From Ruminococcus sp. (GTDB lineage Bacteria; Bacillota; Clostridia; Oscillospirales; Ruminococcaceae): a stretch of DNA of 40,600 nucleotides. This document shows positions 16,838 through 37,218 of this stretch, piece after piece (position 1 is the first letter of the stretch; every line of letters begins with the position of its first letter). The DNA is taken from positions 1-40,600 of the forward strand of contig JAFUYP010000055.1 in the NCBI GenBank assembly GCA_017470535.1, given 5' to 3'. The notes beneath the pieces are model-generated. The model ran no database searches. It was not told the DNA's origin and saw nothing but the letters and a program-made list of their open reading frames with translations. The translations under genes were made by a program, and so were the position numbers.

Positions 16838-17011
16838 GGGCGACACCGCCGGGTCACCGGCATACGCCTTTGTATGCCATCTACTTGCATATTTTCCGTC
16901 ATATCGCCCAAATTCACCTTGAAATACGACAGTATTTTTGCGGTAAATTTAGGCAATCTATTGATAAATCTGACTGCGTATCTGGCATACAATGACCCGG
17001 CGGTGTTGCCC
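16838..17011 (+). repeat. Interspersed foldback element, copy 1
   Basis: 172-bp core (16839-17010) bounded by inverted ends of the form GGCRACACCGCCGGGTCA. Inside, from the outside in, are TTGTATGCCA / TGGCATACAA, then CCCAAATTYACC / GGTAAATTTAGG, with an apical hairpin AAATAC-GACA-GTATTT. It matches the reverse complement of copy 2 at about 160 of 172 positions by hand alignment. It lies between promoters P1 and P2 of the VTC operon. No coding capacity. Confidence 0.88.
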
Positions 17012-17019
17012 CTGAAAAA

Positions 17020-17075
17020 CTTTAAGTAAAGTTTAGGTAGAGTTTAAGGTTGGTTTTAGGTTCGGGGTATATAAT
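17020..17075 (+). promoter_or_regulatory. Promoter P2 with four tandem 11-bp boxes (VTC operon)
   Basis: Four contiguous 11-mers: CTTTAAGTAAA (17020), GTTTAGGTAGA (17031), GTTTAAGGTTG (17042) and GTTTTAGGTTC (17053), followed by TATAAT at 17070-17075. No -35 hexamer is recognisable; the boxes occupy its place. This is the layout expected for activation by an OmpR/PhoB-type regulator, which binds head-to-tail with 11-bp periodicity. The candidate regulator is encoded at 15027-15701. Confidence 0.72.
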
Positions 17076-17140
17076 AAAGACATAGCAAAGAGAGAAACAC
17101 AAAGCTCCCTTTGAAACAATAAAGACAGGAAGTGAGCAGT

Positions 17141-17863
17141 ATGGCAACACTGGTATTTGAAAGAGTTGAAAAGAAATACCTTTTGAATTCACAGCAGTTC
17201 CGGGAACTCAGCGAAGTGCTCGAGGGCAGATTCCAGATAGATAAATACGGCAAGACGACTATAAACAATATCTACTACGACACACCGGATCATCTTTTGA
17301 TAAGAAGATCTCTTGAAAAGCCGGTCTACAAGGAAAAGCTCAGAGTCAGGAGCTACGGCAAGGCTGACAGGGACACAAAGGTGTTCATAGAGTTAAAGAA
17401 AAAGTACAAGGGCGTAGTTTACAAAAGAAGAACGAGCATGGCACTCAAAGACAGCTATCCGTTTTTAAACTGCGAGAGCAAGCCCTGCATAAGCGAACAG
17501 ATAGAGAATGAGATACAGTATTTCATGGGCTTTTATGAGAATATCGCTCCTGCGATGTATATAGGCTATGACAGGATAGCGATGTACGGCGTTGACAATA
17601 AGGATCTAAGGATAACCTTTGACACCAACATCAGGTACAGGCAGACGGATCTCAGGCTTGACAAAGGCTCGTACGGCGAACAGCTTCTTGAAAACGGTCA
17701 GGTGCTTATGGAGATAAAGATACCGGGCGTTATGCCGCTGTGGCTGTCAAAGGAGCTTTCAAGGCTTAAAATATTCCCGACGAGCTTTTCAAAATACGGA
17801 AAAGCATATACAAGGGTACTGACAGATAATTTAGAAAAGGGTAGGGTGAATCATTGTGCTTGA
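17141..17863 (+). CDS. VTC-domain (polyphosphate polymerase-like) protein
   Basis: 240 residues, the length of a lone VTC/TTM catalytic domain. Typical elements are visible: the N-terminal RVEKKYLL motif, basic strands KEKLRVRSYG and KVFIELKKKYKGVVYKRR, GYDRIAMYG, and the late acidic/basic strand LMEIKIPG. In yeast Vtc4 this tunnel fold makes polyphosphate from ATP. Bacterial stand-alone homologues are poorly characterised, so polymerase activity is inferred. Start ATG 17141 follows AGGAAG with 8 nt spacing; an in-frame GTG at 17132 is closer to the ribosome site and less likely. It is the first gene of an operon with DUF4956 (8-nt overlap) and a lipoprotein gene, which supports a membrane-associated complex. 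Control is probably through the phased boxes upstream. Confidence 0.87.
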   Translation: MATLVFERVEKKYLLNSQQFRELSEVLEGRFQIDKYGKTTINNIYYDTPDHLLIRRSLEKPVYKEKLRVRSYGKADRDTKVFIELKKKYKGVVYKRRTSMALKDSYPFLNCESKPCISEQIENEIQYFMGFYENIAPAMYIGYDRIAMYGVDNKDLRITFDTNIRYRQTDLRLDKGSYGEQLLENGQVLMEIKIPGVMPLWLSKELSRLKIFPTSFSKYGKAYTRVLTDNLEKGRVNHCA

Positions 17864-18554
17864 CAATTTATATACAACTATACTTGACACTGCCGCAGAC
17901 GGCAGTACAGTTCTTACAGGTTCGGATTTCGTGATCTGTACGCTCACGGCGGTGGCGCTGGGGCTTATCATAGCGGCGTCCTTCCGCTTTAAACACAAGA
18001 TGACAAAGGGCTTTATGACTACGCTTGCACTGCTCCCGGCAGTAGTAGAGGTAGTGATACTTATGGTAAACGGCAACTTAGGAACAGGCGTGGCAGTCAT
18101 GGGTGCATTCTCGCTCGTAAGGTTCAGATCAGTCCCGGGCGCTGCAAAGGATATATGTGCGATATTCCTCGCAATGGCAGCAGGCCTTGCATCAGCAACA
18201 GGCTATATAGCGATAGCGTTTACATTCACGATACTTGTGTGTATATTAAATATCATCTATACCTGCCTGCCGATAGAAGAGGGCAAGGACGATGAAAAGC
18301 TCCTGCGTGTGACTATCCCCGAGGGGCTTGACTATAACAGCATATTCGACGACCTTTTTGAAAAGTATTTGACAACATCAACACTTGACGCAGTAAAGAC
18401 AACGAACATGGGCAGCCTTTTCAAGCTCGACTATTCTATAAAGGCAAAATCCCCTGACGACGAGAGAAAGCTCATAGACGAGATAAGAACAAGAAACGGC
18501 AACCTTGAAATATCTGTCCTCAGAAAGCCTACATCGGTAAAGGAAGAACTCTGA
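17856..18554 (+). CDS. DUF4956 membrane protein
   Basis: 232 residues. Four hydrophobic segments lie between about residues 23 and 145 (FVICTLTAVALGLIIAAS; FMTTLALLPAVVEVVILMV; AIFLAMAAGLASATGYIAIA; FTFTILVCILNIIYTC), with the conserved loop GAFSLVRFRSVPG between helices 2 and 3. A soluble cytoplasmic domain (about 150-232) follows. This matches DUF4956 proteins, whose genes regularly adjoin VTC-domain genes. The start is GTG 17856, supported by AGGGTGA 6 nt upstream; it overlaps the VTC gene by 8 nt, so synthesis is probably coupled. Inferred role: membrane platform or conduit for the product or substrate of the VTC protein. No biochemical function is established that I know of. Confidence 0.88.
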   Translation: MLDNLYTTILDTAADGSTVLTGSDFVICTLTAVALGLIIAASFRFKHKMTKGFMTTLALLPAVVEVVILMVNGNLGTGVAVMGAFSLVRFRSVPGAAKDICAIFLAMAAGLASATGYIAIAFTFTILVCILNIIYTCLPIEEGKDDEKLLRVTIPEGLDYNSIFDDLFEKYLTTSTLDAVKTTNMGSLFKLDYSIKAKSPDDERKLIDEIRTRNGNLEISVLRKPTSVKEEL

Positions 18555-18578
18555 CAGATAAGAGAAAGAGTGAGAACA

Positions 18579-20702
18579 ATGAAACAAAGAAAATTGATAG
18601 CCTTTGCACTGGCATTGTGTATGGTGACAACGGCTCTTGCAGGGTGCAATAAAAGTGACAGCACAACAGACACAGATACATCGGGTATCAGTGTAAGCTC
18701 TAAGGAAACGAATATCGACGATACTATTTCAACACTGGATCTTGACTTTACGGCGAATGATCTTGATGTGGGGTATGATGATGAGACTGCGGCACATATA
18801 GTGTTTGAAGCCGATACAGCGACTGTTGACGGCGAGGGCGCAGAGGTCACTGATAATGATGTGATTATCACCAAAGCCGGCTGCTATGTGGTCACAGGCA
18901 CCGCATCTGATTCGCAGATCATCATAAATGCCGGCAATGATGACAAGATACAGCTTGTACTGAGTGAAAGCTATATCACCTGCAAGGACGGCGCTCCTAT
19001 ATATATAAAGAGTGCGGATAAGGTGTTCATCACCCTTGCGGACGGTACGACAAATGAGCTGAGCGACTCGGGCAGCGAGTACGCAGCAGACGGGGATATT
19101 TCACCTGATGCAGTTATATTCTCAAAGGAAGACCTGACGATAAACGGCACAGGTACGCTTAATATAAATGCAGGCTACAAGCACGGCATAGTTTCAAAGG
19201 ACGACCTTGTGATAGCAGGCGGTAATATTGAGATAAAGTCTGCAAAGACTGCGATAGAGGGCAAGGATTCCGTAAAGATAGCAGACGGCACTATCACGAT
19301 AGATGCAGGCACTAACGGTATCGTTTCGTCAAATTCCGAGGACAGCACTAAGGGCTATGTCTATATCGCAGGCGGTAAGTTTGACATCACCGCTGCAACA
19401 GACGGCTTGCAGGCTGAAACTATACTCACAGTCGAGGACGGCGAGTTCAAGATAGTGACAGGCGGCGGCGCTGCCGCATCGACCAAGACCCACAGCGAGG
19501 GCTTCGGCGGCGGTATGGGCGGCAAGGGCGGCTTTGGCAGACAGGGTGATACGAATAATAACGATAACAGCGGTGACGCTCCACAGATGCCGCAGGACGG
19601 TGAGATGCCCCGGATGGGCGAGATGCCGCAAATGGGCGATAAGCCGCAGGGCGGCTTTGGCAGAAGGAACGATCAGCAGGCAGCCGGTGACAATGGTACA
19701 GCCGAAGTCACAGCTGAAAATGTGAGCGTTTCAGATGTCCTTGAACAGACTGCAAGCACCGACAGCTCATCGGAAGCAGACGCTCAGACAACAGAGCATA
19801 CCGATCTTGACAATACCTCATCAACGAGCATGAAGGGTCTTAAAGCAGGCAGTGCGATAGCAATACAGGGCGGCAGCTTTGATATAGATGCCGCAGACGA
19901 TACCCTGCATACAGGCGGCAGTGCCGTTATAAACGGCGGCAGCTTTGAGCTTAGCACAGGCGATGACGGAATACACGCAGATGAAATAATAGAGATCACC
20001 TCGGGCACAGTAAACATCAACAAGAGCTACGAGGGCGTAGAGGCAAAATACATCAATATAAGCGGCGGCAGCGTAAAGGTAGTCGCACAAGACGACGGCT
20101 TCAACGCATCTGACGGCAGCGGTGAGAACTTTGGCGGCATGGGCGGCAGACCCGGCGGGCAGCAAAGCGACAGCAGTTCATCGACAGGCTCGACAGATTC
20201 GCCTTATCTTAAAATAACAGGCGGCAAGGTCGAAGTTAATGCTGACGGCGACGGTCTTGACTCAAACGGTTCTATGCTCATAGAGGGCGGAGATATTACA
20301 GTTTACGGTCCTACAAATGCCGGCAACGGCGCACTTGACAAGGGCGACGGCAACTACCTGCTCACAGCATCAGGCGGCACGCTTGCGGCATTCGGTGCGA
20401 CAGGCATGGAGGAAGGCTTTACAGAGGATTCCACGCAGACGGCATTTTTGCATAACTTCTCATCGACCATTGCAGGCGGTACGGAAGTGACCGTCAAGGA
20501 CAGCAGCGGAGAGGTCATAGCGACATATACGCCTGCAAAATCATGGCAGAGCATGGTATTTACAAGTGATAAGCTCAAAGAGGGCGAAACATATACAATA
20601 ACCGCAGGAGATATGTCAGAAGAGATTACACTCGAAGGCACGATAACGTCCAACTCCACCGGAGGAATGGGCGGCGGCTTCGGCGGCAGAGGGCGGCATT
20701 AA
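18579..20702 (+). CDS. Cthe_2159-type carbohydrate-binding beta-helix lipoprotein
   Basis: 707 residues. N-terminal lipobox LAGC (signal MKQRKLIAFALALCMVTTA), so a surface lipoprotein. The body consists of repeated short strands with G-G-x-x-x-I/F and N-G-x-G turns (TINGTGTLNINAG, IAGGNIEIKSAKT, IQGGSFDIDAADD, ISGGSVKVVAQDDG), typical of the right-handed beta-helix family named after Cthe_2159 of C. thermocellum, which binds acidic plant polysaccharide. Two insertions are Gly/Met/Gln-rich and low complexity (near 305-375 and 520-545; GFGGGMGGKGGFGR), and the C terminus repeats the theme. ATG 18579 is preferred over GTG 18570 from the spacing to GAGTGAG. Third gene of the VTC-DUF4956 operon, 24 nt after DUF4956. 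Element copy 2 begins over its stop codon. Ligand not known. Confidence 0.87.
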   Translation: MKQRKLIAFALALCMVTTALAGCNKSDSTTDTDTSGISVSSKETNIDDTISTLDLDFTANDLDVGYDDETAAHIVFEADTATVDGEGAEVTDNDVIITKAGCYVVTGTASDSQIIINAGNDDKIQLVLSESYITCKDGAPIYIKSADKVFITLADGTTNELSDSGSEYAADGDISPDAVIFSKEDLTINGTGTLNINAGYKHGIVSKDDLVIAGGNIEIKSAKTAIEGKDSVKIADGTITIDAGTNGIVSSNSEDSTKGYVYIAGGKFDITAATDGLQAETILTVEDGEFKIVTGGGAAASTKTHSEGFGGGMGGKGGFGRQGDTNNNDNSGDAPQMPQDGEMPRMGEMPQMGDKPQGGFGRRNDQQAAGDNGTAEVTAENVSVSDVLEQTASTDSSSEADAQTTEHTDLDNTSSTSMKGLKAGSAIAIQGGSFDIDAADDTLHTGGSAVINGGSFELSTGDDGIHADEIIEITSGTVNINKSYEGVEAKYINISGGSVKVVAQDDGFNASDGSGENFGGMGGRPGGQQSDSSSSTGSTDSPYLKITGGKVEVNADGDGLDSNGSMLIEGGDITVYGPTNAGNGALDKGDGNYLLTASGGTLAAFGATGMEEGFTEDSTQTAFLHNFSSTIAGGTEVTVKDSSGEVIATYTPAKSWQSMVFTSDKLKEGETYTITAGDMSEEITLEGTITSNSTGGMGGGFGGRGRH

Positions 20703-20878
20703 GGCAACACTGCCGGGCCATTGTATGCCAGATACGCAGTCAGATTTTTCGTCAGATTGCCTAAATTTACCGCAGGAATACTGTCGTATTTCAAGGTAAA
20801 TTTGGGCGATATGATGGAAAATATGCAAGTAGATGGCATACAAAGGCGTATGCCGGTGGCCCGGCGGTGTTGCCTTAA
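20699..20878 (-). repeat. Interspersed foldback element, copy 2 (inverted)
   Basis: 172-bp core at 20703-20874, extended by TTAA on both sides so the terminal inverted repeat is 22 bp with one mismatch (a possible G-U pair in RNA). Its reverse complement matches copy 1 at ~93% by hand count. Its first bases overlap the stop codon of the lipoprotein gene, so it could serve as that operon's 3' structure. Confidence 0.9.
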
Positions 20879-20928
20879 GCTCCCTATTAGCTAACCAATT
20901 CCCAATTACTTCCCTAATTTCCACAAAG

Positions 20929-20961
20929 CAAGGCGGCTGACCCCCACGGTCAGCCGCCTTG
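20929..20961. terminator. Strong stem-loop between convergent genes
   Basis: Perfect 14-bp stem CAAGGCGGCTGACC / GGTCAGCCGCCTTG (20929-20942 with 20948-20961) and a 5-nt loop. Plus side continues TCTTTTACTTC; minus side CTTTGTGG. Probably terminates ypeB and the VTC operon. Confidence 0.85.
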
Positions 20962-20992
20962 TCTTTTACTTCTTACTTCTTACTACTTACCT

Positions 20993-22327
20993 CTAAACGG
21001 TCAGCACGCCGCTCTCGCTTTTTTCGAGCATGAGTATCTGCTCCTCTGCGGCTGTCTTTGCGTTTATATAAACAAGCACATCTCTGTTTGTATCAGACCT
21101 GCACTTGAACTCGTAGCACAGCACCTCTTTTGTTCCCTCAGTTGGTATAAAGCAAAGCTGCTCGCTCTTTATATCAAGCACAGGGCTTATCTCCTTTGAT
21201 GCCCTCTTTACCGAAATAAGATCATCGCCCTTTTTGCGCTCTTTGTGGTTGACGATGTAGCCCCTTGCATCGTAGCCTACAATGTCGCCGTTATCCATTG
21301 CCACCTGTACCTTTATAAGATCGGTGTACATGAGGACATCTGACTGCTTGTACGCAAAGTTTATCGTGCATACATTGTCGTATACCTCGTAGTAGGTGGA
21401 CTCCATGTCGGTCACACCTATGCTTTCAAGGAATTTTTCAGCATACCCTATCGCATCGTCATTAGATATATCGCTGGAGTTTGCACGCCGTGTTTTAAGA
21501 AAATATGAAACCAGCCCACCTTTTTTAGTGACAGCGCAGCTTACCTTGCCGTCATCATCATAGAATCTATACGAGGGCATTTTTCCGTACTCGTATGACA
21601 GATTCGGCACGTCCTCCGACTTTATCCCGAGCGTGAGGATACATTTTTCAAGCGCTTTTTCACGGCTGACTTCCTCCTTGCCCTTTAAAAGCTCGGGGTC
21701 TTTTTCCAGGATATTGTCTGAAAACGGTCCGTCGTATATGAGCTTGGGATAATTTTCAAAGCTGTTCTCAAATCCCTCAAAGCCCTTGCCGTCGCTCAAA
21801 AGCTCCGAATCAGGCTGCTCGTCCGACGGGTACACAAGTGTCTGACCTGTTTCGATGTCGTCGTTTAGCTTCCACATCGCATCGCAAAGATCCTTTGAAT
21901 ACTTGTGCAGCTGTGTGAGCTTTTTGTATTCGTCGTCTGTCAGCTTTTCGCCACGGCTGAGCTTTTCGCTCATCGCCTGAGAAAAGTTCCCGACCTGCGA
22001 TAAAAACTTGTAGGTATTTCCAAGCCCCGACTTGTCAACAGGCAGCTGCGAAAGACAGGCTTTTGCGTTTGCAGCGTAGTTTAAAAGCTGCGAGGACAGC
22101 TTGCCGTGCATCTCCGGCGAGCCTGCGTAAAGCTCCTTTTCAAGCGTCTGACTTATGCTGTCGGTGCTTGACGAGAGATCCTCCATTGCTCTGTAATAGC
22201 TGTATTTAAGTGCCTGCTCTGAGTCGTTCGCTCTGGAAGAGTACGTCCACGCCTTGACGCCGAGCGAGGCTGTTACGGCGGCTGAAAGCATTGCCGCCCT
22301 TATCACTGTTCTTTTTGATAGTATCAT
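20993..22327 (-). CDS. ypeB: YpeB-type spore germination protein
   Basis: 444 residues from ATG 22327. It has an N-terminal membrane segment (AAMLSAAVTASLGVKAW), then the YpeB helical region (YYRAMEDLSSSTDSIS, LSQLPVDKSGLGNTYKFLSQVGNFS, LTQLHKYSKDLCDAMWKL) and C-terminal PepSY-like repeats (DDAIGYAEKFLESIGV, ending VLVYINAKTAAEEQ). In Bacillus YpeB stabilises the cortex hydrolase SleB in the spore inner membrane. Here it is monocistronic, and a SleB-like gene lies ~4.5 kb away at 26881. Start choice: AAGGAG is 8 nt upstream and the consensus promoter at 22352-22380 overlaps the longer open frame, excluding an earlier start. Confidence 0.87.
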   Translation of the reverse strand: MILSKRTVIRAAMLSAAVTASLGVKAWTYSSRANDSEQALKYSYYRAMEDLSSSTDSISQTLEKELYAGSPEMHGKLSSQLLNYAANAKACLSQLPVDKSGLGNTYKFLSQVGNFSQAMSEKLSRGEKLTDDEYKKLTQLHKYSKDLCDAMWKLNDDIETGQTLVYPSDEQPDSELLSDGKGFEGFENSFENYPKLIYDGPFSDNILEKDPELLKGKEEVSREKALEKCILTLGIKSEDVPNLSYEYGKMPSYRFYDDDGKVSCAVTKKGGLVSYFLKTRRANSSDISNDDAIGYAEKFLESIGVTDMESTYYEVYDNVCTINFAYKQSDVLMYTDLIKVQVAMDNGDIVGYDARGYIVNHKERKKGDDLISVKRASKEISPVLDIKSEQLCFIPTEGTKEVLCYEFKCRSDTNRDVLVYINAKTAAEEQILMLEKSESGVLTV

Positions 22328-22351
22328 ATTTGCCACTCCTTTTAGTACGAA

Positions 22352-22380
22352 ATTATGGACTTTTATGCCGTTTTTGTCAA
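22352..22380 (-). promoter_or_regulatory. Promoter of ypeB
   Basis: TTGACA (22375-22380), 17 bp, CATAAT (22352-22357) on the minus strand. A housekeeping-type promoter is unusual for a gene normally under forespore sigma G. Confidence 0.75.
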
Positions 22381-22426
22381 CTGACAATATTATTTCCTCT
22401 TTTTTCTGAAAAATTCGCAGAAGTGT

Positions 22427-22455
22427 TTGAAATATTCACAATAATGTGTTATAAT
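22427..22455 (+). promoter_or_regulatory. Promoter of the cysteine desulfurase-thiI operon
   Basis: TTGAAA (22427-22432), 17 bp, TATAAT (22450-22455) with TG at -14/-15 (extended -10). It is divergent from the ypeB promoter. Confidence 0.82.
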
Positions 22456-22491
22456 TGTATAAACTTGTGAATCTGATTTGGAGTGAAAGCT

Positions 22492-23622
22492 ATGATATAT
22501 CTTGATAACGCTGCGACCACGGCGGTTTGTGCGGCGGCAAAGTCTGCGGCGGCGGAGGGGTTTGAGTGTTTCGGCAATCCCTCGTCTTTGCACGGCGTGG
22601 GGCTTGAAGCGGAAAAGATAATGCGCCGATCCAGGGAAACTATCGCTGCGGCTCTGGGTGTTAAGGATAAGGAGGTTTATTTTACCTCCTGCGCTACCGA
22701 GAGCAGCAATACTGTTATTTTCGGAGCGGCGGCAGCACACGGCAAGCGCCGCAAAAGGATAATAACTACGACGATAGAGCATCCGTCTGTCGCAAGGCCG
22801 GTGGACGAGCTTGAAAAGCAGGGCTTTGAGGTGGTACGTATCTCGCCCGGCGAAAACGGCATCATCACCCCTGAAAGTGTCATCTCGCAGGTCGATGAAA
22901 ACACACTGCTTGTGAGCATTATGCACGTCAATAACGAAACGGGCTATATACTGCCGGTGGGGGAGATATTCAAAGGCGTCAAGCATAAAAATAAGGAAAC
23001 TATCTGCCACTGCGACTGCGTGCAGAGCTTTATGAAGCTGCCGTTCAAGGCAAAGGACATCGGCGCTGACTGCATATCTGTAAGCGGCCATAAGCTGCAC
23101 GCCCCGAAGGGCATAGGCGCTTTGTATGTCAAAAGCGGAGTGCGTATCCTTCCGCTGATGTACGGCGGCGGTCAGGAAAGCGGCTTCCGCTCCGGTACAG
23201 AAAATATCCCTTATATAAACGCCTTCGCCGCTGCGGTCGGGGAGCTTGAACCTACTATCATAGAAAGATATGAAACCGCTTTATCGCTTAAAAAATACCT
23301 CTGTGACAAGCTGTCGGCACTTGACGGGACAGCGGTCAATTCGCATGAAGGCTGCTCGCCGTATGTTGTGAGCATAGCAGTCGAAAGGATAAAAAGCGAG
23401 ACTATGCTGCATTTTCTCGAAAGCCGCGAGATATATGTTTCAAGCGGCTCTGCCTGCTCAAAGGGCAAGAAAAGCAGTGTCCTGCAGGAGCTTAGGATAC
23501 CAGCAAAATACCTTGACTCAACGCTGCGTATCTCCATGACGTCAGATAATACCCGTGAGGAGATAGATGCGCTTGTTTCGGCACTTGTTGACGGCAGGGA
23601 CAGCCTTGCGAAAATAAGGTGA
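22492..23622 (+). CDS. Cysteine desulfurase (IscS/NifS family)
   Basis: 376 residues. PLP-dependent fold type I enzyme: N-terminal IYLDNAATT, H97 (IEHPSV), the PLP lysine K201 in SVSGHKLHAPKG, RSGTENI, and the catalytic loop SSGSACSKGKKSSVL with Cys322. It moves sulfur from cysteine to an enzyme persulfide. The next gene is thiI, so the likely acceptor is ThiI for tRNA 4-thiouridine, as in the NifZ-ThiI pair of Bacillus. The start is ATG 22492, 8 nt after GGAG; the in-frame GTG at 22483 overlaps the ribosome site. No Fe-S scaffold gene is adjacent. The gap to thiI is 55 nt. Confidence 0.94.
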   Translation: MIYLDNAATTAVCAAAKSAAAEGFECFGNPSSLHGVGLEAEKIMRRSRETIAAALGVKDKEVYFTSCATESSNTVIFGAAAAHGKRRKRIITTTIEHPSVARPVDELEKQGFEVVRISPGENGIITPESVISQVDENTLLVSIMHVNNETGYILPVGEIFKGVKHKNKETICHCDCVQSFMKLPFKAKDIGADCISVSGHKLHAPKGIGALYVKSGVRILPLMYGGGQESGFRSGTENIPYINAFAAAVGELEPTIIERYETALSLKKYLCDKLSALDGTAVNSHEGCSPYVVSIAVERIKSETMLHFLESREIYVSSGSACSKGKKSSVLQELRIPAKYLDSTLRISMTSDNTREEIDALVSALVDGRDSLAKIR

Positions 23623-23677
23623 ACAGTTGTTTTATACTATTATAATAATATAAAGAGTCGAAGAAAGGAAAATAATA

Positions 23678-25734: not shown

Positions 25735-25735
25735 T

Positions 25736-28116: not shown

Positions 28117-28132
28117 GTGTGTATGGTACAAT
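28105..28132 (+). promoter_or_regulatory. Promoter of the SpoIID-like gene
   Basis: TTGACT (28105-28110), 16 bp, TACAAT (28127-28132). The -35 lies in the terminator stem and the T-run is the spacer. The expected start point near 28139 makes ATG 28142 leaderless and favours ATG 28190. Confidence 0.7.
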
Positions 28133-28189
28133 ATATTGTGTATGATGATAGAAAAAGGACTTGATGTTGTAAAGGACGGTATCAGCTTT

Positions 28190-29896: not shown

Positions 29897-29914
29897 TCTT
29901 TGGAGGAAAGCGTT

Positions 29915-30520
29915 ATGGCATTTTTTAATACGAACCCCAATGCGGGGCAGATCAATCAGCTCAATAAGCAGATGAACCAGACACTTGGCATGATAAACGG
30001 CAAGTATACCGAAATGGGCAGGATAGTCAAGCTCAGATACTTAGACCGTATAGACGACCCGGACGTTAAGAGGATAGCTGCCGAGATAGATAATATGCTC
30101 GCATCGCTCCAGGCTATGAATAAGCAGATAAATCTGCTCAAAGGTCTGCGTGAATGCCCCGGCTGCCACATCGCTATAAGTACAGGCGTGGCGTTCTGTC
30201 CTAACTGCGGCACAAAGCAGCCTGTTGCTCCTGCGCCTGCACCTGTGCAGGGGTTTGCACAGCCTGCACCTCAGCCTGTCGCACAGCCGGTGCCGCAGAT
30301 GATGCAGCCGGCACCACAGCCTGCACCACAGCCGGCACCTCAGCCGGAGGTAAAGTCCGTGATAGAGGATGCCCCTGCGCCTGCACCGCAGCCGGTACCT
30401 GTTCCTGCTCCTGCGCCGTCAGCAAATGCACCGCAGTTCATATTCTGCACAAGCTGCGGAAACAAGGAAGCAGCAGGTACAAAGTTCTGCTCAGAGTGCG
30501 GCGCTGTGATCGAAGAATGA
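29915..30520 (+). CDS. Double zinc-ribbon protein with Pro/Ala/Gln linker
   Basis: 201 residues. The N-terminal helical segment (about 1-78; MNQTLGMINGKYTEMGRIVKLRY) is followed by a zinc ribbon CPGC...CPNCG, a low-complexity linker of repeated APQP units, and a second zinc ribbon CTSCG...CSECG at the C terminus. Each ribbon has two CxxC knuckles able to hold one zinc. No catalytic motif; it is probably a scaffold or nucleic acid/protein-binding factor. ATG 29915 is preceded by GGAGG with 8 nt spacing. It lies downstream of the SpoIID-like gene in the same transcript. Confidence 0.8.
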   Translation: MAFFNTNPNAGQINQLNKQMNQTLGMINGKYTEMGRIVKLRYLDRIDDPDVKRIAAEIDNMLASLQAMNKQINLLKGLRECPGCHIAISTGVAFCPNCGTKQPVAPAPAPVQGFAQPAPQPVAQPVPQMMQPAPQPAPQPAPQPEVKSVIEDAPAPAPQPVPVPAPAPSANAPQFIFCTSCGNKEAAGTKFCSECGAVIEE

Positions 30521-30527
30521 TAATTGT

Positions 30528-30565
30528 CGGAGCATCGCCTTTTGTGGGCGGCGCTCCGTGTTTTT
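30528..30565 (+). terminator. Probable terminator after the zinc-ribbon gene
   Basis: CGGAGC / GCTCCG (30528-30533 with 30553-30558) plus inner GCC / GGC pairing, followed by a T-run at 30561-30565. It is only 15 nt before the maf start, so read-through or a leader role is possible. Confidence 0.65.
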
Positions 30566-30579
30566 AACGAGGTAGAAAA

Positions 30580-31227
30580 ATGCAAAGCATAAAGAATACA
30601 GACAAGGCTGCCTTGCAGCGTGCTGCAAGGCTCGGTCGGCGGCTTGCAGGCAGACAGGTCATACTTGCGTCAGCGTCGCCGAGAAGAAACGAGCTTATGC
30701 GTGCGATCACGTCAGATTTCCTGACAGAGCCTGCTGATATAGATGAAAGCCTTCCTGACTATATCCCGGCTAAAATGGCAAGCGAGTACCTCGCACGGCT
30801 CAAATGCCTTGCGGTCGCAAAAACGCACCCCCACGCACTTGTGATAGGCTCTGATACGACAGTCGTGGTCGATAATGAGATACTCGGCAAGCCTAATGAT
30901 GCAAAGCAGGCAAAGAATATGCTCAAAAGGCTCTCAGGGCGCACTCACAGCGTTGTCAGCGGTATTGCCGTGTCATGTAACGGCAGGCTCGCAAGCTCGT
31001 CAGATGTAACGAGCGTTGTGTTCACCGAGCTTGATGAACAGCTGATAGACTGGTATATATCGACAGGCTCGCCGTTTGATAAGGCAGGCGGTTACGGTAT
31101 ACAGGATTTTAAAAAGGACGAGGTGTATATCGGGTCGGGCAGCTATACTAATGTGGTAGGTCTGCCGGTCGAGGAGCTTACATTTCTGATAGATGCTTTT
31201 CTTGACGAAGAACCGGAGGTGCGCTGA
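30580..31227 (+). CDS. maf: Maf-family nucleotide pyrophosphatase
   Basis: 215 residues. Maf signatures: the N-terminal ILASASPRRNELMR, VIGSDTTVVVDNEILGKP, LSGRTHSVVSGIAV, and FDKAGGYGIQ near the C terminus. Maf proteins hydrolyse non-canonical or modified NTPs (dTTP/UTP or m7GTP subfamilies) and are tied to septum control in Bacillus. An extra ~25 residues precede the usual Maf start (MQSIKNTDKAALQRAARLGR), yet GAGG is well placed for this ATG. The stop overlaps the next start by 1 nt. Confidence 0.93.
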   Translation: MQSIKNTDKAALQRAARLGRRLAGRQVILASASPRRNELMRAITSDFLTEPADIDESLPDYIPAKMASEYLARLKCLAVAKTHPHALVIGSDTTVVVDNEILGKPNDAKQAKNMLKRLSGRTHSVVSGIAVSCNGRLASSSDVTSVVFTELDEQLIDWYISTGSPFDKAGGYGIQDFKKDEVYIGSGSYTNVVGLPVEELTFLIDAFLDEEPEVR

Positions 31228-31538
31228 TGGGGCTTTTCTCAAAAAAGAAAAAGGATACCATGACCCTCTCACAGCTCAGGGAGTATGATAAAAAAGCCAT
31301 ATCATATGTCGTCAGACGTGAAAACGGCGGGGAAACTATCCTCGGGCGTAAGGGCGCAATATCCGTCAAGGACGATGAGATAGTTATAGTGTGTAACGGC
31401 TCGCAGGCGCTGAGAGTGAATACCGACGGTGCAGTCATGGCGACACTTATGAGCGGCAACGGCGTTGACATCAAAGGAACTGATGCTGACGGCAGACCTG
31501 TACACGCCATAGCATATTATTCAAATCTCAGACAATGA
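31227..31538 (+). CDS. Small protein of unknown function after maf
   Basis: 103 residues. Lys-rich N terminus (GLFSKKKKD), then an apparently beta-rich domain (ETILGRKGAISVKDDEIVIVCNGSQALRV). No signal peptide or membrane segment. It begins at the last base of the maf stop codon with GGAGGT upstream, so it is translated with maf. No family recognised. After it, 31539-31819 is AT-rich and contains a distant inverted pair CTGTCAAA / TTTGACAG (31570-31577 with 31615-31622) and the HU promoter. Confidence 0.75.
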   Translation: MGLFSKKKKDTMTLSQLREYDKKAISYVVRRENGGETILGRKGAISVKDDEIVIVCNGSQALRVNTDGAVMATLMSGNGVDIKGTDADGRPVHAIAYYSNLRQ

Positions 31539-31755
31539 TTATAAATTTTTTGTAAATTCAGACGGTGAGCTGTCAAAAATGCTGTATTGTACTGAAATTG
31601 CATAACTGCGGTTATTTGACAGTATCCGGAGCTGGCGGCTGATAAATATAAATATATAATATGTTAATAAATACAAATATTAGTCCGAGACCCTGCAAAC
31701 ATTTTATATAAAGTTACAAATATTCTGAAAAAACGCAAAAATAGGCGGTTTTGAT

Positions 31756-31784
31756 TTGACAAACGGCGTAAAATGGGCTATAAT
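31756..31784 (+). promoter_or_regulatory. Consensus promoter of the HU operon
   Basis: TTGACA (31756-31761), 17 bp, TATAAT (31779-31784), both perfect, followed by GGAGG and ATG at 31820. It predicts high constitutive expression. Confidence 0.9.
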
Positions 31785-31819
31785 ACAAACAGAATAAAAA
31801 TTATTGGAGGTAGTAAACA

Positions 31820-32098
31820 ATGAAAAAGTCAGATTTAGTTGCACTTATCGCTGAGAAAGGCGGCTATACAAAGACTGAGGCTAACAAGGCACTCAGCACA
31901 GTTATAGACGCTATCTCACAGTCACTTGAGAAGGGCGAGAAGGTATCTCTCGTAGGCTTCGGTACTTTTGAGGTTCGTGACAGAGCTGCCAAGAAGTCCA
32001 TCAACCCTGCTACAAAGCAGCCTATCGAGGTACCTGCCAAGAAGGTTCCTGCATTCAAGGCTGGCAGAGCTCTCAAGGACGCAGTAGACAAGAAGTAA
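31820..32098 (+). CDS. hup: HU-type nucleoid protein
   Basis: 92 residues, standard HU length. Helical dimer region (KKSDLVALIAEKGGYTKTEANKALSTVIDAI), VSLVGFGTFEVRDRAA, the DNA-binding arm with NPATKQPIEVPAKKVPAF, and FKAGRALKDAV. It binds and bends DNA as a dimer. Codon use is strongly biased (Lys almost only AAG), fitting the perfect promoter and high expression. The gene continues into a Lys/Ala-rich protein gene after 29 nt. Confidence 0.96.
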   Translation: MKKSDLVALIAEKGGYTKTEANKALSTVIDAISQSLEKGEKVSLVGFGTFEVRDRAAKKSINPATKQPIEVPAKKVPAFKAGRALKDAVDKK

Positions 32099-32127
32099 TT
32101 TCATATATCTGAAAGGAGATAATCACA

Positions 32128-32550
32128 ATGGCTGATACTAAGAAGACAGTTAAGGAAACTGCTGAGAAGGTAGCTGCTGATGCTAAGGAAGCAGTAGCAG
32201 AAACAAAGAAGGCAGTAAAGAAGGCTGCTGATACAACAGCTAAGAAGGCAACAGCTGCTAAGAAGACAGCTAAGGCTGCAACTGCAAAGGCTAAGACTGC
32301 TGCAAAGACAACAGCTTCAAAGGCTAAGACAACTGCTAAGAAGGCAGTTGAGGATAAGGCAGTAGTATATGTTCAGTACGGCGATAAGGAAGTTGTTGCT
32401 AAGGACGTACTTGAAGCTGCAAAGGCTGATTTCAAGGCTAACCCTGAAACAAAGGGCACTGTAAGATCTATCAAGGTATACATCAAGCCTGAGGATAATG
32501 CTGCATACTATGTAGTAAACGACAAGTTTGAGGGTAAGATCGACCTTTGA
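32128..32550 (+). CDS. Lys/Ala-rich histone H1-like protein with DUF6465-type C-terminal domain
   Basis: 140 residues. Residues 1-75 are a repetitive Lys/Ala/Thr tract (ETKKAVKKAADTTAKKA, AKTAAKTTASKAKTTAKKA) like bacterial H1 homologues and expected to be disordered and DNA- or RNA-binding. Residues 76-140 form a compact domain (VVYVQYGDKEVVAKDVLEAAKADF, VRSIKVYIKPEDNAAYYVVNDKF) that I recall as DUF6465, common in clostridia. GAAAGGAG lies upstream. It shares the codon bias and promoter of HU, so both are probably abundant nucleoid components. A terminator follows immediately. Confidence 0.83.
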   Translation: MADTKKTVKETAEKVAADAKEAVAETKKAVKKAADTTAKKATAAKKTAKAATAKAKTAAKTTASKAKTTAKKAVEDKAVVYVQYGDKEVVAKDVLEAAKADFKANPETKGTVRSIKVYIKPEDNAAYYVVNDKFEGKIDL

Positions 32551-32574
32551 TAAAGGGCTTTACTTAATGTGAAC

Positions 32575-32611
32575 AAAAACAGGGTGCTAAGTGGATGTAC
32601 CCTGTTTTTTT
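32575..32611 (+). terminator. Terminator of the HU operon
   Basis: 11-bp stem AAAAACAGGGT / ACCCTGTTTTT (32575-32585 with 32599-32609), 13-nt loop and a T-run to 32611. Confidence 0.92.
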
Positions 32612-32629
32612 ATGTATCCGGAGGAAAAC

Positions 32630-33226
32630 ATGAAAAGAATACTCATCTTTATAATATTTCTGTGTATCGGCATAGCACTGCCCATAGTCGGCGTGAAGGC
32701 ATATAGGAGCAACGAGCGCCTTATGAATGAGGGCATAGATGTCGAAGCAAAGATAGTGTCAAACAATGGCGGCGAGATCAAGGTCGAATATAAGGATAAA
32801 AACGGCAAGACTGTCACCGCAAAGGGTATCATCAACGACAGCGACCGCTCGGTCGGCAGGGAGTTCAAAGGCAAGTATTTCCCCGATGACCCTGAGACTG
32901 TCCATCTGCCTGCGAAAAAATCCCTTATTTATCTGGTAATGGCGATGTTCGGCGGCTTTACACTTTTTAGCTGGATAATCGTGATAAGGGGCATCGTCAA
33001 TAAAGCCACGGGTTCATCAGTCGGCAAGAACGGTATCGTCACAAGGGCGCAGGTGCTCAATTACAACGTCGAAACAAATATGTGTACCGTGCAGTTCCGC
33101 CGTGGCGACGGACTTGACTGTGTGGTCGATGTACGCAGTGAGATAGCATACAGTATAGGCGCTTATATAAATATAAAGTATATCCCCAAGGGCAAGAGCG
33201 CAAATGTTATCATACTGGGGTATTGA
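32630..33226 (+). CDS. Two-helix membrane protein, DUF3592-like
   Basis: 198 residues. Two transmembrane helices (about 4-22, ILIFIIFLCIGIALPIVGV; and 97-118, LIYLVMAMFGGFTLFSWIIVI), each followed by a small beta module: VEAKIVSNNGGEIKVEYKDKNGKTV ... GKYFPDDPETV and VTRAQVLNYNVETNMCTVQF ... INIKYIPKGKSANV. The repeated A-x-V ... Y-x-P pattern resembles DUF3592, for which no function is known. GGAGG sits 5 nt before ATG 32630. An in-frame ATG at 32591 lies within the terminator hairpin and is rejected. Confidence 0.72.
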   Translation: MKRILIFIIFLCIGIALPIVGVKAYRSNERLMNEGIDVEAKIVSNNGGEIKVEYKDKNGKTVTAKGIINDSDRSVGREFKGKYFPDDPETVHLPAKKSLIYLVMAMFGGFTLFSWIIVIRGIVNKATGSSVGKNGIVTRAQVLNYNVETNMCTVQFRRGDGLDCVVDVRSEIAYSIGAYINIKYIPKGKSANVIILGY

Positions 33227-33250
33227 CAGTCCTTATTAATAATTTAACTA

Positions 33251-33279
33251 TTGACAAATATCCCTTTTTTTAGTATAAT
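33251..33279 (+). promoter_or_regulatory. Consensus promoter of the SH3 protein gene
   Basis: TTGACA (33251-33256), 17 bp, TATAAT (33274-33279), both perfect, 93 nt before the start codon. Confidence 0.88.
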
Positions 33280-33303
33280 TATAATGATATGTATAAAGGC
33301 AAG

Positions 33304-33335
33304 ACCGCAAAAAGACTGCCTGAGGGCTTTGCGGT
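33304..33335 (+). other. Leader hairpin in the SH3 gene 5' UTR
   Basis: Stem ACCGCAAA / TTTGCGGT (33304-33311 with 33328-33335) with a possible inner GCC / GGC pair. No T-run follows at once. It sits in a ~85-nt leader and may stabilise the mRNA or regulate translation. Confidence 0.5.
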
Positions 33336-33371
33336 GTCGTCTGAAAGTATGCTTGAAGGGAAGGAATATAA

Positions 33372-33950
33372 ATGTCAGATAACAGAAACAGCAGCAGGCA
33401 CAGAACGCCTGTAAAAGCTGATACAAGGGCTAAGCGTCCTGATTATGAAGATGAGGAGTATGACGAAGCGGACGATGCTCAGTTTGCGACTACTGTAAAG
33501 GGCGTTATCGCCGTAATGGTAACGTTCATGGTGGTAATGATAGTGCTCATGTTCACAGCACGCAGTATGTTTGTATTGAGCGGTAATGAGTATAAGGAGA
33601 TAGAGAGCGGCAAGGTAACTTCTACCGAGCCGACAGTATATGAAGCCGAGAACACCACAGCCGCAGAGGAGGAGGATAACAGCTCCAAGAAAAAGCGTAC
33701 TGCCGGTCCTAATGCCCAGGAGAAGAATAACGAAACGACCACCACAAAGAAGCTCGAGGGCACTACACAGTATAGATGTATAAGTGCAGTTTACCTGCAT
33801 CCGCAGCCGTCGGCAGAGAGTGAGAATACTCTCGTTATACCGCAGGGCGCAGTTGTAGATGTGCAGAAGGAAGAGGGCGGCTGGTACTACCTTGATTATA
33901 ACGGCACGGTAGGCTGGGCGTATGGTACGTTCTTCACACTCAATCAGTAA
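33372..33950 (+). CDS. Membrane-anchored SH3-domain protein
   Basis: 192 residues. A charged cytoplasmic N terminus (RPDYEDEEYDEADDAQ), one transmembrane helix (about 43-64, GVIAVMVTFMVVMIVLMFTA), a Thr/Glu/Lys linker and a C-terminal bacterial SH3 domain (about 130-192; AVYLHPQPSAESENTLVIPQGAVVDVQ, GGWYYLDYNGTVGWAYGTFF). No catalytic domain. It probably binds the cell wall and may recruit cytoplasmic partners through the acidic N terminus. Monocistronic. Confidence 0.8.
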   Translation: MSDNRNSSRHRTPVKADTRAKRPDYEDEEYDEADDAQFATTVKGVIAVMVTFMVVMIVLMFTARSMFVLSGNEYKEIESGKVTSTEPTVYEAENTTAAEEEDNSSKKKRTAGPNAQEKNNETTTTKKLEGTTQYRCISAVYLHPQPSAESENTLVIPQGAVVDVQKEEGGWYYLDYNGTVGWAYGTFFTLNQ

Positions 33951-33965
33951 TAATAGAAAAACAAG

Positions 33966-33993
33966 AGCCGCTGTCGTGTGCAGCGGCTTTTTT
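33966..33993 (+). terminator. Terminator of the SH3 protein gene
   Basis: 8-bp stem AGCCGCTG / CAGCGGCT (33966-33973 with 33981-33988), 7-nt loop and six Ts. Confidence 0.93.
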
Positions 33994-34002
33994 GTGTATA
34001 AT

Positions 34003-34026
34003 AAAAGTGGGCTGCGTTTGCAGCCC
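34003..34026 (-). terminator. Terminator of the ABC-GT2 operon
   Basis: 7-bp stem GGGCTGC / GCAGCCC (34009-34015 with 34020-34026) with a GTTT loop. The minus strand continues ACTTTTATT; the plus side also has TGTTTTTA, so it may act both ways. Confidence 0.82.
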
Positions 34027-34031
34027 TGTTT

Positions 34032-34871
34032 TTATCCTCTTAAAAACTTTTTGTATAAGACCTCCGTCATCTTCCCCGGCAGAATAAACATTGCGATCTG
34101 GAAAAGCGTCGGTATAAGAAAATCGGCAAATGACGAAAACCCTTTGCGGAAGTTGCCAAATCTCACTTTTATAAACGCTTTGGTGTTTGCATAATTGCTC
34201 CTGCGCTTGTAGTTGTCCTTGTTGACACGGTATCTTACAAGGGCTCTCGGGATATTTCTCCCGATAGCGCCTGCCATGAGCATATTTACCACAAACTCAT
34301 AGTCCTCGCATCTTTTGATGTCACTGTAACCGCCCACACGCAGCGCCAAATGCTTTTTGTAGCAAAGCGTCTGGTTATTAAAAGGATTCCTGCGCCGGGC
34401 GTATCTGTGTATCTCCTTGTTTGTGACAGGCGTTTTCTTGAACGCTATGTGTTTTCCCGTGTCGCTGTCAAATTCATCAATGTACGCCCCTGCCATGTCT
34501 ATCTCGGGGTGTGCAGCAAACAGCCTCATCATCAGCTCGCACCTGTTCTTTTCGGCATAGTCATCGGAATCCATTTTAACGATGATGTCGTGCTTTGCAG
34601 CTTTAAGTCCCTCGTTTGCACAAAGCCCTGTCCCACGCTTTGACACTCTCAGGACGTTTATGCAGCTGTACCTGCTCTGATACTCTTCAAGCACTGAATC
34701 AAGCTCCTGCGTCAGTTCGCCGTCGCAGACTATTATAAAATCATCAGTAGGGCAGGTCTGCGCTAAAATGCTGTCAATGCTCAGCCTGAAAAACTCCGCC
34801 TTCTCACCGGAATAAACGGACATAAGCACACTGTATCCCGGCAGCCTTGCCGAATCTGAATGTGTACCCAT
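34032..34871 (-). CDS. Family 2 glycosyltransferase
   Basis: 279 residues. GT-A fold: SVLMSVYSGE at the N terminus, FIIVCDGELT, and the metal/nucleotide-sugar motif KMDSDDYAEKNR, then GGYSDIKRCEDYEF in the acceptor region (conserved ED). A hydrophobic C-terminal segment (FADFLIPTLFQIAMFIL) may associate with membrane. It transfers an unidentified sugar to a glycan or lipid-linked acceptor. Start ATG 34871 follows GAGGTGA; GTG 34880 overlaps that site. Last gene of an operon with the ABC-2 exporter pair, 15 nt after the ATPase gene, so it probably modifies or builds the exported polysaccharide. Confidence 0.9.
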   Translation of the reverse strand: MGTHSDSARLPGYSVLMSVYSGEKAEFFRLSIDSILAQTCPTDDFIIVCDGELTQELDSVLEEYQSRYSCINVLRVSKRGTGLCANEGLKAAKHDIIVKMDSDDYAEKNRCELMMRLFAAHPEIDMAGAYIDEFDSDTGKHIAFKKTPVTNKEIHRYARRRNPFNNQTLCYKKHLALRVGGYSDIKRCEDYEFVVNMLMAGAIGRNIPRALVRYRVNKDNYKRRSNYANTKAFIKVRFGNFRKGFSSFADFLIPTLFQIAMFILPGKMTEVLYKKFLRG

Positions 34872-34886
34872 ATCCGTCACCTCTTT

Positions 34887-35963
34887 TTATTCCTGTGTGC
34901 TTTCCTCAGCCGGTGTACCCTGAGCCTGTGCATCATCGCTCACTGCCGGCTGTACAGTCTCCTGTGCTGCGGCAGCTGCGGCATTATCGGCATTCTCAGC
35001 CGGCTGAGCCTGCTGCTCCTGTGTCTGTGTATCTGTTGCTGCTGTTTCAGCCTTTGGAGCAGCCTTTTTCTTCTTCTTTTTCTTTTTAGGCTTAGGCGGC
35101 GTGAATGTCAGATCCGACAGCCCAAGAGCCTTTCGCCTTTCAAGACGCTGCTCTTCAAATTCCTTAGCCTTTTGCTCGATCTCTTTTTTCTTCTTAGATT
35201 TAGCAGCTCTTTCTTTCTTCTTGCGCTCTTCGATAGTGGTTGCATATTCGTTGGCGACAGTCTCAATATCGCCGGACATTACTACCTCGCCCTTGTTGAG
35301 CCATATAGCATAGTCGCACATAGCCTTGCAGGTGTCCATATTGTGAGATACGAACAAAAGCGTTGTGCCGCCTGCGAGCATCTCCCTCATCTTGTTCATG
35401 CACTTTTTGCGGAAAAGCATATCACCTACCGACAGTACCTCGTCAACTATCAGTATATCAGGCTTTACCATAGTAGCTACCGAGAAGCCGAGTCTTGATT
35501 TCATACCGGAGGAGAAATTCTTCACCGGCGTGTCAAGAAAATCCTCCAGCTCCGAGAATTCCACTATCTCGTCAAACCTTTCCTCTACAAACGCTTTGGA
35601 ATAGCCGAGTATGCAGCCGTTTAGGTATATATTCTCCCTTGCCGTGAGCTTCGGGTCTATACCTGCACCAAGCTCGATAAGCGATGCCACCGTGCCGTTT
35701 ACCGTAACTTTACCCTTGTATGGCTTTAGTATGCGGCTGATGACCTTTAACAGCGTGCTCTTGCCGCTGCCGTTGGTGCCTATGATAGCCCATGCTTCAC
35801 CCGGCTTTATTTTAAGGTCGATGTCCTTGAGCGCCAAAAACTCCTTGAACATCAGCTCGCCCTTGACGAGCTTTACAAAATATTCCTTTAAGTTGTCGAT
35901 ATTCTCACTTGCTTTGTTAAAGCGTATCGTTACCTTATCGACATCAACGATATATTCACTCAT
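34887..35963 (-). CDS. Polysaccharide/teichoic acid ABC exporter ATPase (Wzt/TagH-like) with long C-terminal tail
   Basis: 358 residues. ABC domain with Walker A GTNGSGKST (62-70), the signature FSSGMKSRLGF (150-160), Walker B ILIVDEVLSVGD (170-) and the switch His in FVSHNMD. The sequence context around Walker A (GEAWAIIGTNGSGKSTLLKVISR) is typical of Wzt/TagH exporters. After about residue 240 comes a Lys/Glu helical region (ERKKKERAAKSKKKKEIEQKAKEFEEQR), a poly-Lys block and a final Ala/Gln/Glu-rich tail of ~70 residues. No folded carbohydrate-binding domain as in Escherichia coli O9a Wzt is visible, so the tail may bind RNA, membrane or partner proteins instead. It pairs with the permease 15 nt upstream. 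Confidence 0.9.
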   Translation of the reverse strand: MSEYIVDVDKVTIRFNKASENIDNLKEYFVKLVKGELMFKEFLALKDIDLKIKPGEAWAIIGTNGSGKSTLLKVISRILKPYKGKVTVNGTVASLIELGAGIDPKLTARENIYLNGCILGYSKAFVEERFDEIVEFSELEDFLDTPVKNFSSGMKSRLGFSVATMVKPDILIVDEVLSVGDMLFRKKCMNKMREMLAGGTTLLFVSHNMDTCKAMCDYAIWLNKGEVVMSGDIETVANEYATTIEERKKKERAAKSKKKKEIEQKAKEFEEQRLERRKALGLSDLTFTPPKPKKKKKKKKAAPKAETAATDTQTQEQQAQPAENADNAAAAAAQETVQPAVSDDAQAQGTPAEESTQE

Positions 35964-35978
35964 TACAAGACCCCCTTT

Positions 35979-36869
35979 TTAAATGTAAAGGATAAACTTA
36001 TCCTGGGTCTTTTTAAACACCGTGATACCAATTATAAGCATCAGGAACGCATATCCGAACCCGAGCACGAAATCCCACATCGTAAGAACGTGCCAGCCGG
36101 GTACCTTGTCAATGATAGGGTTCCAGACAAACGCACGGAACTGCTTTATATAGATGTAAGCCGGGTTGCCGTACTGAATAAAGTTTGAAAGATATAAAGC
36201 GATAGGTGTTTCTCCGGCCTTTATCTGAGCCTTGCCCTTTTTGTTGATAGTGCCGAGATCATAGAATATCGCCGAGCAGTATACCCATGCTGTAAGTATC
36301 GCATGGTAGATATACTTTATATCTCTGAAAAATACATTGAGCGCTGCGAGCAGGAATCCAAGCCCCATAGCGAAGATGTATGCTTCCACCACAACTATGA
36401 TTATCCCAAGATCCCAGAATGTGAACAGCAGCCTGCCCTCAACGATAGAGTAGTATATCATCAAAAGCACCAGTGCGCCGAGTGAGAATACAAAGTCAAC
36501 CATAGATGCAGTTATCTTTGACATCGGGAACATGAATTTCGACACATACGTCTTTTTGAGCAGCGACGCATTGTCGGTGATAGCGCCGAGCGCTTTGTTT
36601 GTCGCAGTTCTTATGAATTCAAATACCGTTCTTCCGATCATCAGGTAGATAGGGAACAGCTCTATCTTCTTTGCAAAGAGCATCGTGAACACTATCGACA
36701 TGATTATCATTATCATCAGAGGGTTGAGTACGCTCCATACATATCCCAAAAAGCTGCGGCGGTATTTGAGCTTTATATCTCTTGAAACGAGCTGATAAAG
36801 CAGATCCTTGTAATTGAAAAGCTCGAGGAAAGAGCCTTCCTTGAATTTATGTTTTTTCTCTTCGGTCAA
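35979..36869 (-). CDS. ABC-2 type polysaccharide exporter permease (Wzm/TagG-like)
   Basis: 296 residues with about six transmembrane helices. The N-terminal LLYQLVSRDIKLKYRRSFLGYVWSVLNP is characteristic of Wzm/TagG permeases; later features include SKFMFPMSKITASMVDF and NVFFRDIKYIYHAILTAW. With the adjacent ATPase it should export a lipid-linked wall polysaccharide or teichoic acid. The start is TTG 36869, supported by AAGGTGA 6 nt upstream. Operon promoter at 36930-36958. It lacks nucleotide-sugar synthesis neighbours, so the exported polymer is unknown. Confidence 0.92.
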   Translation of the reverse strand: MTEEKKHKFKEGSFLELFNYKDLLYQLVSRDIKLKYRRSFLGYVWSVLNPLMIMIIMSIVFTMLFAKKIELFPIYLMIGRTVFEFIRTATNKALGAITDNASLLKKTYVSKFMFPMSKITASMVDFVFSLGALVLLMIYYSIVEGRLLFTFWDLGIIIVVVEAYIFAMGLGFLLAALNVFFRDIKYIYHAILTAWVYCSAIFYDLGTINKKGKAQIKAGETPIALYLSNFIQYGNPAYIYIKQFRAFVWNPIIDKVPGWHVLTMWDFVLGFGYAFLMLIIGITVFKKTQDKFILYI

Positions 36870-36929
36870 TCGTTGTCACCTTACAATCTTTTTTCTTTTC
36901 TTGACTTATGATAAATAATACCAAGTTAT

Positions 36930-36958
36930 ATTTTAACATACTAAAATTCAAGTGTCAA
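36930..36958 (-). promoter_or_regulatory. Promoter of the ABC exporter operon
   Basis: TTGACA (36953-36958), 17 bp, TAAAAT (36930-36935) on the minus strand, ~60 nt before the TTG start. Element copy 3 ends 87 nt upstream of it. Confidence 0.8.
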
Positions 36959-37044
36959 TACAAAAGCGCCTATAATCGCACTTTTAGCTAAATAATAATG
37001 ATTTTAAGGCAAAAGATATAACAATTTGACCATACATATAATAA

Positions 37045-37218
37045 AGGCAACACCGCACGACCACCGGCTCACGCCTTTGTGTGCCATCTGCTTGCCGGAT
37101 TTCCGTCATAATACCCAATTTTACCTTGTCTTACGTCAGTAAAACTGCGGCAAAAATGGGCATTCTGACGAAAATTCGGACGGCGCATCTGACACACAAT
37201 GGTCGTGCGGTGTTGCCT
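37045..37218 (+). repeat. Interspersed foldback element, copy 3
   Basis: 172-bp core (37046-37217) with a perfect 19-bp terminal inverted repeat (AGGCAACACCGCACGACCA and its complement). About 78% identical to the reverse complement of copy 2 by hand alignment, with no net length change. Differences in the terminal stem (GCACGACC for GCCGGGCC), the next stem (TTGTGTG / CACACAA for TTGTATG / CATACAA) and the apical stem are paired. It lies 30 nt downstream of the mrp-like gene and upstream of the ABC operon promoter. Confidence 0.88.

Follow-up and report, generated by a model that had tools for sequence, protein, structure and literature searches.

Three copies of a 172-bp foldback element occur in the window, the 40,600-nucleotide stretch of Ruminococcus sp. 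DNA analysed here (GenBank assembly GCA_017470535.1, contig JAFUYP010000055.1, positions 1 to 40,600 of the forward strand). The copies are miniature inverted-repeat transposable elements (MITEs) whose ends are common to an IS5-type element. By statistical evidence, their 172-bp body has been selected to form a single-stranded fold on the strand opposite the plus orientation, since its length is mostly held, its paired bases change together and mismatches read as G-U on that opposite strand are tolerated more than those read there as A-C. It is therefore likely that this is an IS5-mobilised MITE selected for the single-stranded foldback, probably as RNA, of one of its strands. An earlier examination of the letters alone (hereafter, the sequence-only reading) had described the three copies as a MITE-like or structured-RNA family, and both halves of this description proved apt, the first by the ends, the 4-bp target duplications and an IS5-family partner found elsewhere, the second by covariation. 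The target duplications, the strand polarity of the fold and a fourth, 44-bp derivative go beyond what had been noticed.

Measured from GGC to GCC, all three copies are 172 bp long. Copy 1 (16839-17010, plus strand) lies between two CCTG repeats (16835-16838 and 17011-17014), copy 2 (20703-20874, minus strand) between two TTAA repeats (20699-20702 and 20875-20878) and copy 3 (37046-37217, plus strand) between two TAAA repeats (37042-37045 and 37218-37221), those of copy 3 being read from the sequence; the better-folding strand is the minus strand for copies 1 and 3 and the plus strand for copy 2. The sequence-only reading had located the copies and the length of their cores correctly, but its ends overran into the target duplications by 1-4 bases. 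Its hand counts of likeness agree with pairwise values of 93% over 172 nt (~160/172) for copies 1 and 2 and 78% over 178 nt for copies 2 and 3. Instead of the terminal inverted repeats of 18-22 bp that it had proposed, the entire element folds back: the RNA fold of copy 2 is paired along its full length, with a minimum free energy of -74.7 kcal/mol (z -8.8; 0 of 200 shuffles equally stable), and copies 1 and 3 likewise pair along their full length on their better strand.

The window, contig C23, belongs to a genome of 2.1 Mb (G000; 86 contigs, 76% complete) throughout which the family is dispersed, the 11-bp end GGCAAYACCGC occurring 205 times and a reversed control not at all. A near-complete congener (G001; 3.6 Mb, of which ~0.36 Mb was sampled) has 349 end words. 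Exact 172-bp elements were extracted from the G000 loci examined (49) and from the G001 sample (45), and their 4-bp flanks are identical in 33/48 and 35/45 copies, respectively, whereas permutation of the right flanks gives 8.5 on average and no more than 17 and 15; flank repeats of 2, 3, 5, 6 or 8 bp never exceed 7 copies. The search for target duplications that the sequence-only reading had suggested thus gave a clear 4-bp answer, which extends to 58 of 87 further copies from other genomes, and the commonest targets are TTAA, TATA, TTTA, TAAA, TTAG and CTAA. At the syntenic locus of two Ruminococcus metagenome-assembled genomes (MAGs), identified via the neighbouring VTC-domain protein (80-81% amino-acid identity), copies 1 and 2 are absent from both intergenic regions; the same MAGs have 51 and 54 model matches elsewhere, numbers that, as in all genome-wide model searches reported here, include places matched on both strands. 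Among the sampled G001 loci (L031 to L050), eight 172-bp copies of one element are identical, which points to a recent spread, by movement or conversion, in a genome where no partner was recognised. Size variants with the same ends include internally deleted mini-hairpins of 30-74 bp and longer forms of 191-193 bp and 230 bp, some of the listed pairs of terminal inverted repeats (2 mismatches allowed) being chance matches within genes. The element is accordingly a short non-coding sequence, well below the limit of ~600 bp for MITEs, with terminal inverted repeats, a target duplication, many dispersed copies and ends common to an autonomous element.

That autonomous element was found in another genus. 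Among the places listed in the end survey, those of genome G145 pair at exactly 1133 bp and delimit an insertion sequence (IS) with the ends GGCAATACCGCAC... and ...TGCGGTATTGCC and a single open reading frame (ORF) of 325 aa, the product of which matches NF033581 (IS5-family) with 350.6 bits against a cut-off of 140 and also matches Pfam DDE_Tnp_1. This IS is present in 8 copies with identical, intact transposases, and its flanks are of the TTAA, TTAG, TTAT, CTAA and CTAG kinds. The MITE agrees with it in its ends of 11-15 bp and in a 4-bp target of the TTAA kind, but is devoid of a transposase, and its body does not resemble the IS beyond the ends (by eye, not aligned). A search of 247 genomes from the taxonomic family of the window's organism (E up to 1e-40) gave 19 transposase loci, spread over 9 genomes; 14 of these loci carry the exact end on one or both sides (6 of them in addition to the 8 G145 copies), 4 have none and 1 has a doubtful variant. 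The same ends accompany a degraded IS end (L095) in the MITE-rich genome G077 and an IS5-type fragment (L108) in the MITE-rich G212. The window's genome itself contains two relic IS ends, which match the first 45 bases of L095 of G077 at 45/45 (L068 at 3128) and 44/45 positions (L057 at 1063).

Two other candidates for a partner were rejected. With PF01609, a match was obtained only in G001 among 6 genomes (G003 left out), and that IS carries other ends; two ends 2733 bp apart on contig C5 of G000 bracket host genes, which from their sequence we take to be phosphotransferase system (PTS) enzyme I and HPr. Two side observations concern the IS ends and copies themselves. The solo IS5-type ends at L057:1063 and L068:3128 contain a promoter-like stretch, TATGATATAATG, in front of other sequence, and may act as portable promoters. 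In G145, IS copies with identical transposase occur in close pairs ~1388 bp apart (L074, L075 and L076), one of them beside an N, owing to either tandem duplication or an assembly effect.

The covariation that the sequence-only reading had pointed out in three stems of the window copies recurs in 24 copies of the window's genome and in 152 copies from 15 genomes. An alignment of 162 unique 172-bp copies was prepared, of which 152 were used for the counts of covariation, mutation direction and polarity, the apex register of the other 10 (4 from G114, 4 from G212, 2 from an unassigned genome) seeming shifted; covariation was scored on the 63 pairs predicted on both strands. In this set, 92.6% of pair cells are Watson-Crick, and 108 double changes from one Watson-Crick pair to another fall on single branches of the tree, compared with 5.7 on average and no more than 11 in 60 tree-aware simulations in which each branch's substitutions were redistributed over columns, so that the covariation exceeds phylogenetic expectation. 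Sliding the partners by 1-3 columns leaves 1-7 double changes. After Bonferroni correction 8 of the 63 pairs are significant, and in a separate count on the 24 copies of the window's genome none of 500 shuffles attained even one of the 5 observed measures. A near-invariant block within the arms, comprising plus-strand columns 55-64 with 119-129, retains its commonest base in 140-152 of the 152 copies per column, and is a possible protein-binding site; within it, columns 58/126 are C-A, which reads as G-U from the opposite strand, in 143/152 copies.

What pairs as G-U on one strand appears as an A-C mismatch on its complement, and the two strands of the element differ in this respect. In plus orientation, 157 single changes from a Watson-Crick pair lead to A-C and 59 to G-U (p 2e-11), and with one vote per base pair the ratio is 35 to 13 (p 0.002). 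The excess of A-C cells over G-U cells is found in 15 of 15 genomes, belonging to 7 genera, and the polarity persists on a pair set derived from plus-strand folding, which is biased the other way. Strand-biased mutation was rejected as the cause, because unpaired columns have no bias in that direction: they contain 19 changes from G to A and 41 from C to T, C being roughly twice as frequent there as G, so that the rates of G to A and C to T are about equal, while A to G exceeds T to C. The comparison of stems with unpaired columns gives an odds ratio of 3.1 (p 4e-6; Fisher, not corrected for base composition). Upon folding, the opposite strand is the more stable one in 162/162 copies, with a mean of -94.8 vs -69.2 kcal/mol, a difference of ~26 kcal/mol.

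Orientation relative to the preceding gene is random, with 46/88 copies co-directional; these 88 of 94 copies were classed with crude ORFs (at least 70 aa) and include copies flagged inside an ORF (16 flags in all). One alignment comprised the 82 unique sequences among the 94 copies from G000 and G001. Terminal A-C:G-U events number 21:10 and 22:12 where the upstream gene points along or against the better-folding strand, respectively, in a count in which a leaf may be entered twice if two copies are identical. Because the bias is alike in both orientations and orientation is random, the polarity seems intrinsic to the element rather than imposed by its surroundings.

The family extends beyond Ruminococcus, with many copies dispersed among bacteria of the gut and rumen. 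The sequence-only reading had advised a genome-wide covariance-model search, and a model built from the 24 copies of the window's genome detected the family in 17 of 20 genomes, most of them chosen as rich in element ends, and in 10 of 13 genera; G009 and G010, which are without ends, had no match, and neither had the IS-carrying G145 to the 172-bp model. Among the 150 matches listed, 97 are exactly 172 bp long and 121 fall within 171-173 bp, while the regions from which further copies were taken were chosen mainly among matches spanning ~172 bp and are not a measure of length conservation. Ruminococcus bicirculans 80/3 has matches at 6 places, 3 of 172 bp, and R. albus 8 has 3 weak matches; the model found none in R. 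albus KH2T6 and AR67. In a survey of the 247 genomes with a 15-base end pattern, 118 have a match, most of them 1-3 and 21 at least 10. Carriage by phages or plasmids was rejected, with no match in plasmids, only 5 partial matches in phages and, for two internal words searched in viral contigs, no exact hit.

These data suggest the following course of events. An IS5-family DDE transposase that recognises ends like GGCAAYACCGCACAA would move, or would have moved, the MITE in trans and duplicate a 4-bp TTAA-like target, as we infer from the ends that the MITE shares with the IS. The folded molecule would be an RNA, made when transcription from external promoters runs through the element. Encoded G-U pairs may keep this RNA paired while the DNA arms remain imperfect, and such arms would make a 172-bp DNA palindrome less liable to cleavage or deletion. 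The fold presumably serves the element's own spread or tolerance and not regulation at each site, since the polarity is seen in copies of either orientation to the preceding gene. Tentatively, the family might represent a mobile structured RNA, that is, a non-autonomous DNA transposon the spread of which depends on a non-coding RNA from one strand, in which a near-perfect RNA hairpin encoded with G-U pairs is set against an imperfect DNA palindrome, and which has kept its length and core across at least 9 aligned genera and persists where no matching transposase was found.

Several observations weigh against an IS5-mobilised MITE selected for an RNA fold. As to mobilisation, searches with NF033581 (E up to 1e-10) or PF05598 found no IS5-type transposase in G000 or 6 congeners, so the window's genome has yielded only the two relic ends and no cognate transposase, and none is recognised in G001 either in spite of its identical copies; even in G145, only 4 of the 8 IS copies have the same 4-bp sequence on either side. 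Of the empty sites that the sequence-only reading had proposed to look for, the absence of the elements at syntenic loci stands, but the syntenic spacers are too diverged to be aligned to the base and offer no base-exact empty site. As to the fold, a search for sigma-70-like promoters inside the three window copies found no match, so any expression would be governed by context; the figure of 162/162 is partly due to inherited wobbles, such as that of columns 58/126; and all change events were counted by parsimony among copies that may recombine. Terminal events are even (11:11) in copies before two diverging genes, unbiased in G131 (6:6) and reversed in G122 (1:3), and the strictly young singletons (6 A-C, 3 G-U) are not numerous enough to demonstrate selection following insertion.

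These points have to be set beside other explanations of the same data. A plain IS5-type foldback MITE without RNA function could owe its paired changes to one-step template switching between the arms and keep its structure only through self-correction of the DNA palindrome; the internally deleted mini-hairpins imply that slippage at the palindrome occurs, and each of the 108 double changes lies on a single branch, a pattern that copying in one step would give as well. Such arm-to-arm correction, however, should treat both strands alike and hence leave no 157:59 polarity, nor is the polarity present in unpaired columns, and we consider this already disfavoured explanation unlikely. The main alternative to RNA is that the selected fold is that of single-stranded DNA of one strand, for example a strand-specific hairpin arising while the DNA is replicated, conjugally transferred or transposed. 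DNA hairpins, too, accommodate G-T pairs, DNA energy parameters return the same polarity in 162/162 copies, which weakens the case for RNA over DNA, and the polarity is alike whichever way the preceding gene points; IS5-type DDE transposases, on the other hand, are not known to use single-stranded foldback, and the symmetric ends give a transposase no obvious strand preference, and we regard a DNA fold as quite unlikely. Finally, the element could have been domesticated by the host as a regulatory RNA or transcript-end element at each insertion site. Copies are close to genes, and terminator-like hairpins lie at most 60 bp away from 17/46 G000 copies vs 57/434 control sites, but this enrichment is not clear in G001 (10/45 vs 173/1100), copies 1 and 2 are not common to the two species compared, and orientation to the preceding gene is random, on account of which a cis element in the transcript of that gene was rejected; we consider domestication very improbable. 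Selection for the foldback of one strand as RNA, in a MITE moved by an IS5-family transposase, remains the explanation that we prefer.

The lack of coding capacity asserted by the sequence-only reading was borne out, and a protein-coding element was rejected: reverse frame 0, the most open one, is uninterrupted in 95/162 copies, but 67/162 carry stops in it, and codon positions are equally variable. Its statement that no named family applies holds as well. No Rfam 15 family reaches the gathering threshold in the window, and a search of five loci at E up to 5 gave only two weak matches, far below gathering scores, so a known Rfam RNA was rejected; a literature search, with slight coverage of subscription journals, retrieved no description of this repeat family, and articles containing the end sequence have titles unrelated to the element.

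The closest relatives in kind are other small repeats. The Correia/NEMIS repeats of Neisseria are, like the element described here, palindromic MITEs (theirs of ~100-160 bp), but they have TA at their termini and other ends, and their hosts belong to another phylum. According to the passages concerned in PMC10969869 and PMC2229807, they give rise to folded transcripts that RNase III cleaves, and folded MITE transcripts are described in the same parts of these reviews. For RUP and BOX of Streptococcus pneumoniae, the corresponding passages of PMC3049150 describe small, tightly folded MITE-like repeats with paired ends that are judged parasitic, and propose their mobilisation in trans by resident ISs, the partners being IS630-Spn1 and ISSpn2. 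As portrayed there, BOX differs in being modular and 67-637 bp long, in contrast to the 171-173 bp spanned by 121/150 listed matches here. None of the MITE and repeat passages of PMC10969869, PMC2229807 and PMC3049150 reports strand-polar covariation.

Bacterial MITEs are usually seen as deletion derivatives of ISs with incidentally folding transcripts, whereas here the fold is under strand-specific constraint. The question of function versus incidence of RNA structure in MITEs thereby becomes measurable, as the ratio of G-U to A-C events can be applied to any repeat family. The family also provides an abundant marker for Ruminococcus and its relatives, and it may explain breaks in the present assembly: a number of G000 contigs end ~130-160 bp from an element end, and the assembly therefore seems to break at these repeats.

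Two features of the window concern individual insertions. The TTAA duplication to the left of copy 2 (20699-20702) provides the stop codon of a Cthe_2159-domain gene (18570-20702), the original end of which may have been replaced by the insertion. The 44-bp derivative (33298-33341, plus strand) is an internally deleted hairpin with degenerate ends, flanked by TAAA and TGAA. It is situated between a TTGACA-17-TATAAT sequence just upstream and an ORF starting at 33372, and may therefore form a hairpin in a transcribed 5' leader.

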